Source of the DNA: Macrosoma leucophasiata
Taxonomy: Eukaryota; Arthropoda; Insecta; Lepidoptera; Hedylidae
DNA: 64,000 nucleotides
Direction: 5' to 3'
Assembly: GCA_036365455.1 (NCBI GenBank)
Contig: JAWQUS010000020.1
Coordinates: forward strand, 3,073,001-3,137,000
Shown here: positions 4,701-16,700 of the stretch, in pieces
How the letters are laid out: each line of letters opens with the position of its first letter
How positions within the stretch are numbered: position 1 is the first letter of the stretch
Notes under the pieces: generated by a model
The model's database searches: none
What the model was told of the DNA's origin: nothing
The model's input: only the letters and a program-made list of their open reading frames with translations
Translations under genes and position numbers: made by a program

Positions 4701-7700
4701 GTATTCACGTATCTATCTTCACGTCAGGTCCCTTACGGAGTAGGCAGAGTGTGAAGCGCCAGATATCCCGATCCTGACACACATCCCGTGCTTCTTCGTT
4801 CATTGATCTCATCATATATGCACGCCTATACTTAACACTCTTGATCCTACCCGATCGAAATTGTTGTCAACATTATTATTGTCGTCAATCAACTTTTCAT
4901 ATCACTTTGTACCTCCTTTAAAAGCAATTCTTAATGATTAAGAACTTGGCCTAAGCATACAAGGCCACAACTTTGAATCCCATCCGAAGTAAATTCTTTC
5001 CACATCTTTAAAATCTTTATTGCAACAGAATAAAAAAAAAGTGTTTATTTCACAAATGGTAGAGTGAAACTTTGCGATCTTCATAAGAAGCTCATAATGC
5101 TCGCTATCTTATTTTCGCCCATGTTAAATGTTATGAAATTATGTGGCTGTCTCTTTTTCGTTTCATCGACTTTTCAAATCCCAAACACATAGAAAGGGTT
5201 CATTTCAAAAACATACCTGGTGCAACTTGAGAGCCATCCGTATAGCCGGCGCCAGCACGGAATGCAACAAGGACACGTCGCTGAACACCCACTCGTCACG
5301 AGCGCACGTTATTCGGAAGTCGCCCTTGAATAACGAGTGCAAGCCGTACAGGAAAAACTCCACGCTGTGAACAGTTATGCTAATGTGAGATACGAGAAGT
5401 AGCATATGATAACAATATATCACAGCAATATACAGTGCTCAACAATATATATTGCACATCGAGCCTAGGAAGGAGACTTCGGCTTATTTCGGGTCTGTAG
5501 AGTGTTATCTCTTACGCACCGTACGTATTTGCCGTTTGTCGACTATTTTGATCAAGTTTTGACCATTACCGGACTGTCAGTGCTTACGTGTGAAACAAAG
5601 ATAACGCTCTACGAAGTACATACACACTGTGCTGGGCGGCGGCGAGGGCGCGGCGGCCCAGCAGCGACAGCGCGAAGGCGAGGGTGACGAGGACGGAGTG
5701 CGGGGGGGGGGCGCCACATACACACCTGGAGGCGGACAGGTGCTGGGCGGCGGCGAGGGCGCGGCGGCCCAGCAGCGACAGCGCGAAGGCGAGGGTGACG
5801 AGGACGGAGTGCGGGGGGGGGGGCGCCACATACACACCTGGAGGCGGACAGGTGCTGGGCGGCGGCGAGGGCGCGGCGGCCCAGCAGCGACAGCGCGAAG
5901 GCGAGGGTGACGAGGACGGAGTGCGGGGGGGGGGGCGCCACATACACACCTGGAGGCGGACAGGTGCTGGGCGGCGGCGAGGGCGCGGCGGCCCAGCAGC
6001 GACAGCGCGAAGGCGAGGGTGACGAGGGCGGAGTGCGGGGGGGGCGCCACATACACACCTGGAGGCGGACAGGTGCTGGGCGGCGGCGAGGGCGCGGCGG
6101 CCCAGCAGCGACAGCGCGAAGGCGAGGGTGACGAGGGCGGAGTGCGGGGGGGGCGCCACATACACACCTGGAGGCGGACAGGTGCTGGGCGGCGGCGAGG
6201 GCGCGGCGGCCCAGCAGCGACAGCGCGAAGGCGAGGGTGACGAGGGCGGAGTGCGGGGGGGGCGCCACATACACACCTGGAGGCGGACAGGTGCTGGGCG
6301 GCGGCGAGGGCGCGGCGGCCCAGCAGCGACAGCGCGAAGGCGAGGGTGACGAGGGCGGAGTGCGGGGGGGGCGCCACATACACACCTGGAGGCGGACAGG
6401 TGCTGGGCGGCGGCGAGGGCGCGGCGGCCCAGCAGCGACAGCGCGAAGGCGAGGGTGACGAGGGCGGAGTGCGGGGGGGCGCCACATACACACCTGGAGG
6501 CGGACAGGTGCTGGGCGGCGGCGAGGGCGCGGCGGCCCAGCAGCGACAGCGCGAAGGCGAGGGTGACGAGGGCGGAGTGCGGGGGGGGCGCCACATACAC
6601 ACCTGGAGGCGGACAGGTGCTGGGCGGCGGCGAGGGCGCGGCGGCCCAGCAGCGACAGCGCGAAGGCGAGGGTGACGAGGGCGGAGTGCGGGGGGGGCGC
6701 CACATACACACCTGGAGGCGGACAGGTGCTGGGCGGCGGCGAGGGCGCGGCGGCCCAGCAGCGACAGCGCGAAGGCGAGGGTGACGAGGGCGGAGTGCGG
6801 GGGGGCGCCACATACACACCTGGAGGCGGACAGGTGCTGGGCGGCGGCGAGGGCGCGGCGGCCCAGCAGCGACAGCGCGAAGGCGAGGGTGACGAGGGCG
6901 GAGTGCGGGGGGGGCGCCACATACACACCTGGAGGCGGACAGGTGCTGGGCGGCGGCGAGGGCGCGGCGGCCCAGCAGCGACAGCGCGAAGGCGAGGGTG
7001 ACGAGGGCGGAGTCCCTGGTGGCGGCCCTCCGCCGCCAGCCGGCACCGCGGCGGGCCGCGCAGTGCACGATCCACTCCTGGTAGATCGTGCAGAACCGGC
7101 TCCTGGTAACCATGGTAGAGGGATCAGTGTTGTTTTGGGTCGGAGACGTTCACAGATGTGATCATGACACTTTATGCCAAATTTGTGGTCGATCAAACGT
7201 TGTCGTCGGCATCCAAAAAAGTCATATCGCCGTATAGATTTACGACGACATGACTTGACTCTATAGCAAACAAAAAATAATAATTATAAATACACCCAAC
7301 ACTGCTTCACTTCACATCACATTCACGACGCGCCACAAGTTGTGTCGTATAACTTAAAGTGGGCTACGGACTGTAGAGCAACGAAGATGGATGTCCCACA
7401 AGGATCAATATTAGGTCCGTTTCTGTTTTTAGTTTACATAAACGATTTACTCCACTTAATGCCTAACAGTGATCGCTGTTCGTTCGAAAAGGGTAAGTAA
7501 TCATACCGTGTAATACCAGAAGCTCGAAAGTCATAGTCCTCATCTAGGTTGACGTTGAATATGGGGTCCAGGTCCACAAAGGAGCGCTCATTCATCGGTT
7601 TCAGGGCTTCGCACAACGCAGGAGATGACAGCCACTCTTCAAGCTTAGTCGACTGGATGGTGTAGTAGATTATACTCTGTGAAAATTATGTTGATTAATT

Positions 7701-13700: not shown

Positions 13701-16700
13701 TGTTTTCCGACACCTCCAATACTGTTTCAATCAATTTACACAAAACTAACAAATTTTATACACAAACCTACCCCAAGAACCACTCTAATGTGAAAACTGC
13801 ATTGGTTGCAGTTTCCGTGCATGAGTCTTTGAATTTATCGCGAACGGACAGACAGAAAGACGCAACGGGAGACTTTATTTTATGATATTGTATAGATAGA
13901 CTGGACCAAAACAGTAACTTACCCGCACCCAAATTGCGTTCCAACTGCGAAGACAGTCTGGTGTTGCTCTGGTCTACTCTCTTCGTATTGTAGTCACGCT
14001 CCCAGAACTTCACTGGCCTCACGTAGGAAGTCATGAATATTGCGCTACCTGTAATAAAATTGAATAATGTATAAGTAATTAAAATCTGTTTAAGACAGTT
14101 CATTGAAAACGCAAAGTGTCATAGACAAGTGCGGCTGACAGGAACTGCGCGGGGTCACGGGAGGGCGACATCGCTACATAGCGTAGGGGTGAAGGGGGGG
14201 AGGAGAGTGCGGCCGGCAAGAACAGCTCGGGGCGGAGGAGGGATGGGGTGAGGAGAGCGCAGCAGAGAGGGCGGCCTGCAGGAACAGAGGGGGGGCACCG
14301 TTACCTAACTCGGGGTGAGGGGGTAGGAGAGCGCGGCGGAGGGCGGCTTGCAGGTAAAGAGCGTGTGCGGGGGAGAGGGGGGAGCTCCCTTACCTAGCGC
14401 GCGGATGATGGGGGAGGAGAGCGCGGCGGAGGGCAGCTTGCAGGAAAAGCGCGTGTTCGGGGGAGAGGGAGGGCTCCCTTACCCAGCGCGGGAGTGAGAG
14501 GGGAGGAGAGCGCGGCAGAGAGGACGGTTTGCAGGAAAGCGTGTGTGCGGGGGAGAGGCTCCCTTACCTAGCGCGGGGGTGAGGGGGGAGGGGGGAGGAG
14601 AGCGCGGCGGAGGACGGCTTGCAGGAAAGCACGTGTTCGGGGGAGAGTGGGGGGCTCCCTTACCTAGCGCGGGGGTGAGGGGGGAGAAGAGCGCGGCGGA
14701 GAGGACGGCTTGCAGAAAAGCGCATGAGCGGTAGAGAGGGGGATCCCTTACCTAGCGCGGGGGTGAGGGGGGAGGAGAGCGCGGCGGAGGACGGCTTGCA
14801 GGAAAGCACGTGTTCGGCGGAGAGGGGGGGGGCTCCCTTACCTAGCGCGGGGGTGAGGGGGGAGAAGAGCGCGGCGGAGAGGACGGCTTGCAGAAAAGCG
14901 CATGTGCGGTAGAGAGGGGGATCCCTTACCTAGCGCGGGGGTGAGGGGGGAGGAGAGCGCGGCGGAGGACGGCTTGCAGGAAAGCACGTGTTCGGGGGAG
15001 AGGGGGGGCTCCCTTACCTAGCGCGGGGGTGAGGGGGGAGGAGAGCGCGGCGGAGAGGGCGGCCTGCAGGAACAGCATGGCGGAGTGCGGCACGGAGAAG
15101 GGCTGGGCGAACGCGTGAAACGCGCTGCCCCAGGTGATCTGCCACGGCGCTATGTATGTCACCACAAACTGGATCTGGAACAGACACATTATTTTATTAT
15201 TAAACGAGGACATTTTTAATGGACTGCGGAACGCGGAGGAGGCTTATCTGTTCATTAGTCAATAATAATGTAAGCATGTTTGTAACTTTTTGGCGCTCTA
15301 GAACCCGAACGCGTGGGCCGATTTTCATGGTTATTATGTCAATCGATTGGTTTTGAGCATGCAAGTATCAACGATGATAAAATAGTGATCAAAATTTATA
15401 ATGGGGCTATCATTGTAAATTTTGATTAAGAACTTGGAAAAAAAAAATAACAATTTCCACACTATTTTCATCTTCTGTTTATACCATCTAAGGTTATTTG
15501 AAAAAAAAATAGGCCATGAGTGCGAAGATGAAATATATTTATTTGTTTCAGACTGTGATGAATTCCAATACGGAGGTAATTTAAATTCTAAGAAAATTCA
15601 AAAATAAACTACTTTTAGTACATTTTTAAAGAAAAATGGAAAAAAAAAAATTTACTTCAGGCGAGACTTGAACTCGCGGTTACTGGGAATCTAGTCCAGC
15701 CGCTCTTCCAACTGAGCTACCGAAGTCCTGCCCGATTTGTCAAATCTTTCCTACACATTTATTGCATTGCCTTATCCCTCTATTGCATGAATTACCAGGA
15801 ATGAGAGAAAAAAATATATTTTTGTCTTATTTGTGTTTTATTGGGATAAATTAAGGATTTACAAAACGAAAAAAAAAATTAGGTTCTTTACTTAAGGAAA
15901 TAAATTTAAAAGCCATAAATGGCTTTGTGTGCATTTAGCACTTTCTATGATCGTGCCATTTCTGGCTTTCTGGCTGTGCTGGAGATTTGTTACGAACTGT
16001 AGGCGTAGCAGCCGTGCTTGTAGTAGGCGTACCTTGTACACGAGTACCGGTAGTGCTGGGGCGACCACGTTTCTTTGTGATGATCTTTCCTGCCTTTCCA
16101 TAATGTTCAGATATGGCGAGTTTGAATTTATACAGAGGCATATACATGCCATCATTATTCTATCTGATTTTGGCCAACACTAGTAGACCAATATCTTCTT
16201 GAGGCTGGCATATGGACCACGTGAAAATTACAATTCCTATAAACTGTTCTATTTCAGATCTGGTGATATTTGTGGGCTTGTAGACATTGACCTGTACAGC
16301 TCGTCAGTAAAAAAAATTAAGAAATCAGCCAGTAAATCCAGCATTTGAATACAATCTGATAAAGCCAGGCTACCAGTAAATTTATAGTTTCTTTTCATTT
16401 GCTTAGGATTAATTGACAATATTTTTCTCGTCACCGGAAGTATCCAAATCGGATTCTGGTATAACGATTGGTTGATTGCAGGAGTTTCATAAGCAAAGGT
16501 TAGAAAGCGGAATGTTGTCGTCGTCAAAGTCAGATGCGGAGTCATCACTAATGGGAATAGATTTAGTGAAACGATTAGTGCCATAAAAACGTGATGGAAT
16601 CATTCTGGACAGGTATAAAAAGGAATCGCTGATGCATGCTAAGGCATTTCTGGCTCAGCGATTTACACCGTAAATGCATACACAGCCAAAAGTGGCTCCC

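Follow-up and report, generated by a model that had tools for sequence, protein, structure and literature searches.

The window analysed here, a stretch of 64,000 nucleotides from the lepidopteran Macrosoma leucophasiata (GenBank assembly GCA_036365455.1, 616 Mb in 61 contigs; contig JAWQUS010000020.1, G000:C20:3073001-3137000), carries on its minus strand exons 1-18 of pcx (pecanex). The 3′ ends of pcx exons 8, 12 and 14 are repeated in tandem together with their 5′ splice sites, and the repeats extend into the downstream intron (Table 1; slashes in sequences mark splice borders). Rebuilt exon by exon, with 20 kb added past window position 1, pcx has 25 exons encoding 2829 amino acids with zero internal stops when exon 12 starts at 9713, and the original prediction had therefore numbered the three exons correctly. 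Pecanex_C matches are found in three of six tested exon open reading frames, and the Epargyreus clarus pecanex-like protein 1 is 92% identical to the pcx protein over the query region. The start at 9713 is probably 39 nt too early and the true start 9674, as suggested by alignment with relatives: 27 models are gapped at this point, the 12 gaps listed comprising 13 residues each, three further models have a 13-residue gap shifted by one or two positions, and an internal acceptor (GTCCGCAG/AGGGC) brings back the conserved EGVCG. With the start at 9674, the predicted protein has 2816 amino acids, whereas the donor counts and frames reported below are unchanged.

Tandem Repeats Finder (TRF) and the splitting of each array by its donors agree on 9, 10 and 13 copies at exons 8, 12 and 14, with units of ∼88, 129 and 109 bp, respectively, as had been predicted. 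The array at exon 8 ends in an altered donor (GTAACG), and the terminal donor at exon 14, which is included in the count of 13, is altered as well. The exon-8 copies are 81–87% alike, with 178-bp dimeric higher-order units nearest the exon and the most degenerate copies farthest from it; by eye, degenerate copies extend on to ∼14165. The exon-12 copies are spaced by 129 bp in nine of nine cases and differ at one variable site, each unit consisting of ∼120 nt of exon end and 9 nt of intron (GTGAGTGTG) with 43 open in-frame codons. At exon 14, the units measure 108–112 bp (the terminal one 98) and differ mostly in C-tract length; one substitution is common to the three distal copies, and the last copy is 14 bp shorter ahead of its donor. 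In 100 block-wise dinucleotide shuffles of positions 5000-16000, zero arrays with a period of at least 60 bp were obtained, and the top TRF score was 85, as against 1153, 2549 and 2663 for the real arrays. The unit consensuses of the window arrays are without significant similarity to one another (best E 0.31), which bears out the proposed independent origin of the arrays.

The prediction of three arrays stands for those three, but the count was incomplete, as a fourth and larger array follows exon 23 outside the window. All 27 copies compared carry GCCCGCCAG/GTAGCC, and the last copy has GTAACT. The non-exon part of the unit is 9 nt at exon 12, ∼24 nt at exon 14, at most ∼34 nt at exon 8 and ∼57–72 nt at exon 23; thus, the 9–35 bp of intron per unit that had been predicted holds for the window arrays but is not uniform. 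In two Helicoverpa species, the exon-23 junction is present in both a short (NARFY) and a long (NARQ...RFY) form. Exon 23 here matches the long form through GTAGCC, and a GC-type donor (AG/GCAAGA) 18 nt upstream would yield the short form. In all four cases, the architecture is directly visible and the same, as had been claimed for the window arrays: the unit comprises the exon end, the 5′ splice site and the start of the intron, and the array runs into the downstream intron. The arrays are not ordinary in-exon coding repeats, as they cross the donor, and exon 12 alone could be translated through its array. Short in-exon repeats are also found in pcx, in exon 19 (20 bp × 2.5) and in exon 21 (18 bp). 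The latter (C20:3070323-3070115; L023 ∼7115-7323) is in frame, encodes (GGVGAG)n and is not in the E. clarus protein.

Table 1. Gene model and donor-spanning arrays. Coordinates without a prefix are window positions; L018 is one of the 10-kb stretches sampled elsewhere in the genome.
Feature	Coordinates	Strand	Details
pcx exons 1-18 of 25 and introns	1586..32546	-	splice-consistent model
pcx exons 19-25	C20:3072995 down to 3057901, past window position 1	-	model extended with 20 kb
pcx exon 8	15018..15174	-	GC 0.68; canonical donor CTAG/GTAAGG at 15017
pcx exon 12	9481..9674	-	donor CAAG/GTGAGTGTG at 9480; start set by comparison with relatives
pcx exon 14	6929..7102	-	GC 0.76; canonical donor CCAG/GTGTGTATGT at 6928
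pcx exon 23	C20:3065953-3065793	-	gene model
Array 1, exon-8 end and donor	14286..15072	-	TRF 88-90 bp × 8.8, 81-82%; 178-bp dimer 87%
Array 2, exon-12 end and donor	8311..9602	-	TRF 129 bp × 10.0, 99%
Array 3, exon-14 end, donor and C-rich tract	5629..7013	-	TRF 109 bp × 12.7, 99%
Array 4, exon-23 end and donor	C20:3061254-3065793, 7 kb beyond window	-	28 copies, ∼170 bp
RhoGAP-exon array	L018 1961-2339		115 bp × 3.3; exon end and donor CTCAAG/GTATCACTG

The same arrangement recurs in other genes. A gene-blind sample of 26 stretches of 10 kb, taken at preset positions along contigs C1-C19 and C21 (260 kb), holds exactly one array with a GC content of at least 0.6 and a unit of at least 60 bp. 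Its exon scores as RhoGAP (E 7e-07, above the Pfam cut-off), with a C1 match below the cut-off in a nearby exon, and the next 10 kb downstream of the gene (L022) contain no TRF array with a period of at least 20. We also scanned the genome for two copies of CAGGTRAGT with 61–120 bases between them, using the backward pattern as control, and obtained 67 matches versus 23, all on one strand. Counted from their rows, these matches form 22 loci, of which 10 are GC-rich (0.66–0.81 over 80 bases each) and 12 are, by eye, AT-rich, repeat-like or isolated. The upstream sequence was read for four of the ten GC-rich loci (on C31, C4, C3 and C2), the other six being candidates by pattern. On C31, C4 and C3, an open frame reaches the first donor, and C31 and C3 also have a likely acceptor; the C31 exon matches Orn_Arg_deC_N (ornithine-decarboxylase-like; E 4e-13, above the cut-off), the C4 exon is MRG-like at an E of 1e-4, slightly under the cut-off, and the Pfam search of the C3 and C2 loci was without match. 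One copy of the C2 array lacks the donor (CAGAGTGGG), and the stretch is too short to reveal the start of that array.

A second scan with AAGGTRAGT pairs gave 76 matches versus 18 in the control. It recovers the exon-12 array of pcx (9 matches) and one new GC-rich locus (C2:6552190), together with an AT-rich tandem locus on C13, a place on C25, six chance-like singles and two long arrays that are candidates by pattern position: C28:3072528-3074876, with the motif in ∼45-bp units (30 matches), and C32:1022880-1025852, with the motif in ∼106–115-bp units (27 matches). By themselves, the consensus scans, whose recovery is low, point to roughly twelve GC-rich loci; as the donor-pair patterns recover one of the five arrays known in detail (exon 12), their counts are lower bounds. 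One array per 260 kb would loosely extrapolate to ∼2,400 per genome, with a very wide error. An explanation specific to pcx is rejected by the RhoGAP array and the loci of the genome scans, and the common process that had been postulated is supported by their arrangement. Separately, C17:6662720-6663134 and C32:2804916-2805106 hold the same CAGGTGAGTTAGGGCCCTAACTCACTAGG tandem repeat of ∼90–100 bp, a dispersed repeat that such scans can mistake for a donor array. A rule by which all units would carry only 7–10 intron nt, followed by degenerate exon, was dropped as general after alignment tests (exon 8, P 0.029 with the cross-copy consensus and P 0.30 with the actual proximal copy; exon 14, P 0.88; RhoGAP array, P 0.55).

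Within pcx, long-unit arrays are present at 4 of 24 donors and at none of 24 acceptors. In agreement with the GC-rich hosts of the original prediction, they occur in four of the nine donor-bearing exons with GC above 0.67 and in none of the other 15 (Fisher P 0.012); a rank test of exon GC against array presence gives P 0.048 with the exon-12 start at 9713, and the start at 9674 would shift the GC values slightly. In 354 kb (the window, 260 kb elsewhere and 30 kb additional), all five GC-rich (at least 0.6) arrays with units of at least 60 bp span a donor; three are the original finding and one more lies in pcx, so that two are new and one is in another gene. Genome-wide, donor pairs are enriched, whereas T-rich acceptor pairs (TTTTYCAGR) hardly are, with 193 matches versus 165 in the control, although the comparison is imperfect, in that a T-rich pattern would overlook GC-rich acceptors and the donor patterns recover one of the five arrays known in detail. 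Among the 100 of the 193 acceptor matches listed, there are five runs of two or three touching matches and none longer, whereas the two donor lists hold seven runs of four or more (the one on C17 being the dispersed repeat, and those on C28 and C32 of unread nature). A donor-side bias is therefore supported, short of proof. The human CBS variant 844ins68, which duplicates an intron–exon (i.e. acceptor-side) junction (PMC2630376), speaks against strict polarity.

The consequences of donor choice were predicted by extending each exon to each of its donors, joining it to the remainder of the gene and translating the product. With the first donor at each of the four array exons (8, 12, 14 and 23), the product is the normal conserved pcx protein. 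With the later donors, the frame stays open to the end in 0 of 8 cases at exon 8, 4 of 12 at exon 14 and 0 of 27 at exon 23, all others ending in a premature stop (8, 8 and 27, respectively), whereas at exon 12 it is open in nine of nine, each adding 43 residues. In 34 lepidopteran pecanex models (P0003-P0036), a repeated non-low-complexity 12-mer is present in one, that of Spodoptera litura (P0036), and the repeat of the exon-12 end in none. With P0036 excepted, the junctions of exons 8, 12 and 14 are aligned with insertions of at most 4 residues, and exon 23 has either a short or a long form in those models in which the pattern was matched. These alignments would fit old introns that have been lengthened, the intron positions being seen through protein models alone. 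The mayfly model P0002 (Ephemera danica), considered as a further array, was rejected as such, since an entire region is duplicated in this one gene model; the conserved pecanex C-terminal region is present in it twice, each time nearly in full, through gene-model fusion or real duplication.

We consider it probable that the arrays are splice-shielded exon-end minisatellites, i.e. donor-carrying duplications of GC-rich exon ends that are spliced out and expand. GC-rich exons would be prone to tandem duplication, and a duplication that begins within such an exon and ends just beyond the 5′ splice site would leave the first exon end and its donor intact. The spliceosome could then still yield normal mRNA, the extra copies leaving with the intron, and the array, released from coding selection, may expand by slippage or unequal exchange. 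Duplications confined to the exon would be translated into the protein or disrupt its frame and be lost, so that the survivors would carry a donor. A donor-carrying duplication hidden in the intron would explain why the hosts are GC-rich, why the sequences are independent and why the arrays lie on the donor side and run into the intron; in line with this, it is the distal copies at exons 8 and 14 that are most degenerate or distinct. From these patterns we infer that the first donor is the one used in vivo, that the copies are neutral and the way in which they grow.

Several observations weigh against this explanation. Five pcx exons with GC above 0.67 are without a long-unit array, and the most divergent copies of the exon-23 array lie within its distal third rather than at its end. 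In the exon-23 copies, 3 of 101 columns are variable in the exon part versus 12 of 63 in the rest (P 0.0012), and in the exon-8 copies 14 of 50 versus 18 of 32, a difference that pure neutrality would not predict. This lower variation hints at selection or at conversion of the copies by the real exon, but shared ancestry and C-tract noise weaken the hint; besides such conversion, mutable C-rich tracts or noise in the alignment could be its cause. Furthermore, the S. litura model resembles an acceptor-side array in exon 12: at residues ∼2000-2102, a segment from the exon-12 start is repeated in two alternating frames (as read from protein letters alone), and back-translation by eye places CAG-like sequence ahead of each copy. 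If this array is real, polarity is a bias rather than a rule; the strict polarity originally claimed has the S. litura model and CBS 844ins68 against it.

Selection could instead have kept the arrays as banks of alternative donors, with an isoform ladder in steps of 43 amino acids at exon 12 and a tuning of expression through nonsense-mediated decay elsewhere. The full frame is kept by all 10 exon-12 donors, the donor hexamers are identical in the 8 exon-8 and 27 exon-23 copies compared, and the exon parts vary less than the spacers. However, a unit divisible by 3 has a one-in-three chance, and the exon-12 unit contains a mere 9 intron nt; at exons 8, 14 and 23, splicing from a later donor would mostly lead to a premature stop, the last donor is altered at exons 8 and 23, and the C2 copy has lost its donor. 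The near-identity of the exon-12 and exon-14 copies is equally accounted for by recency, and none of the 34 lepidopteran models contains the exon-12-end repeat. We therefore regard donor banks as unlikely, and the hints of selection for extra donors, which the original prediction had raised, are weak.

The proximity of some unit ends to the donor raises a different alternative, in which a donor-directed mutational process (e.g. transcription-time breaks or template switching at the border) founds the arrays with breakpoints just past the 5′ splice site. By eye, the units reach 9 nt beyond the exon at exon 12 and 7 nt beyond it in the MRG-like C4 exon; where the distal ends are readable, unit and intron diverge at +9, +10 and +3 (exons 12, 14 and 23), and the CBS unit ends at +7 (PMC2630376). 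The genome-wide excess of donor pairs over T-rich acceptor pairs points the same way. Other units, however, contain ∼24–72 non-exon nt, and short intron parts are expected in any case because an array can survive only if the donor is intact and because the GC-rich tract stops near the border. Moreover, a search of both strands of the three window arrays and of the RhoGAP array gave no simple G-quadruplex motif (regular expression G3+N1-7). A donor-directed origin is thus not probable, although it would be consistent with some of the unit ends.

It is very unlikely that the arrays are assembly artefacts, in which repeats are collapsed or falsely expanded. Near-identical arrays are in general hard to assemble to the right copy number, but the differences between the copies are ordered (C-tract length groups, dimeric units, divergence at the edges), and donor arrays recur at unrelated loci. 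Recursive splicing, in which the copies would be zero-length exons whose AG/GT serves as acceptor and donor for stepwise removal of the intron, draws on the pyrimidine-rich ends of exon 8 (0.88 before TAG/GTAAGG) and exon 14 (0.72 before CAG/GTGTGT). The pyrimidine excess of array exons over other pcx exon ends is not significant (P 0.07), and with values of 0.60 at exon 12 and 0.40 at exon 23 this reading is highly improbable.

Two further features lie in the window. At 22879-23427, in a pcx intron, AT-rich tandem units of ∼98–100 bp around a AAGATGGCGGAC motif are followed by similar units in inverted orientation, which looks like a mobile-element or satellite remnant. A tRNA-like segment (CGAACTCGCGGT...CTGGGAATCTAGTCCAGCCGCTC) recurs in both orientations at ∼3571-3650, 15650-15730 and 17040-17120 and is probably a short interspersed nuclear element (SINE).

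More broadly, it is conceivable, if rather doubtful, that donor-polar expansion recurs at GC-rich exon ends at dozens to thousands of loci, creating several to ∼30 near-identical competing 5′ splice sites among which the donor is chosen by position alone, and which in some cases (pcx exon 12) change protein length in 43-residue steps. If recurrent, the arrays would provide many naturally competing 5′ splice sites on which first-come and exon-definition rules could be tested directly; they would also represent a harmless route to intron lengthening and give rise to isoform ladders and to errors of annotation. Such recurrence would also make the donor/acceptor asymmetry of tandem duplication measurable.

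Among known systems, the minisatellite of human IFI6 (6-16), a 12-bp repeat, is said to have been described with multiple splice donors by Turri, Cuin and Porter in 1995. Two of its downstream repeat units serve as donors (PMC4526556); like the pcx arrays, its repeats offer alternative donors, but the use of downstream donors is documented for IFI6, whereas the pcx arrays are known from sequence. The closest counterpart in architecture is the 31-bp variable number tandem repeat (VNTR) of human CBS, c.1444_1467+7(16_21), in which, by this notation, the last 24 exon nt and the first 7 intron nt are present in 16–21 copies (PMC2630376) at the exon 13/intron 13 border, where it is termed non-coding (PMC5188458). 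Every unit holds a 5′ splice site, as in pcx, but the CBS unit is shorter and confined to a single locus, whereas the units here are of ∼88–170 bp from coding exons, and their arrays occur four times in one gene and recur across the genome. In CBS 844ins68, a duplicated splice junction is likewise removed by splicing and the mRNA is normal (PMC2630376). De Grassi and Ciccarelli (2009), in a study of human genes in segmental duplications, found 27 of 80 modifications to be repeats at exon–intron boundaries that alter or create introns (PMC2812944), although these have a mean unit of 30 bp, lie in duplicated paralogues and, in the parts considered, are not separated into donor and acceptor side. 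A lepidopteran or genome-wide donor-spanning class was not found in the parts considered of the open-access (PubMed Central, PMC) literature, in a search of which little was aimed at Lepidoptera and whose scope left out subscription papers and preprints. The original view that no such class had been described nevertheless fails in light of the identical architecture of the CBS VNTR, the IFI6 donors and the boundary repeats of PMC2812944. Finally, intron gain by tandem genomic duplication of an AGGT-containing exon (PMC3443670) similarly turns copies of exon sequence into intron; there, a new intron arises within an exon, whereas here the duplicate spans an existing donor and an existing intron is lengthened. 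Single donor-spanning VNTRs, and hence the kind itself, are thus already known in humans, and what is new here is their recurrence, four times within one conserved gene and across an insect genome, with long coding units and an apparent donor-side bias.

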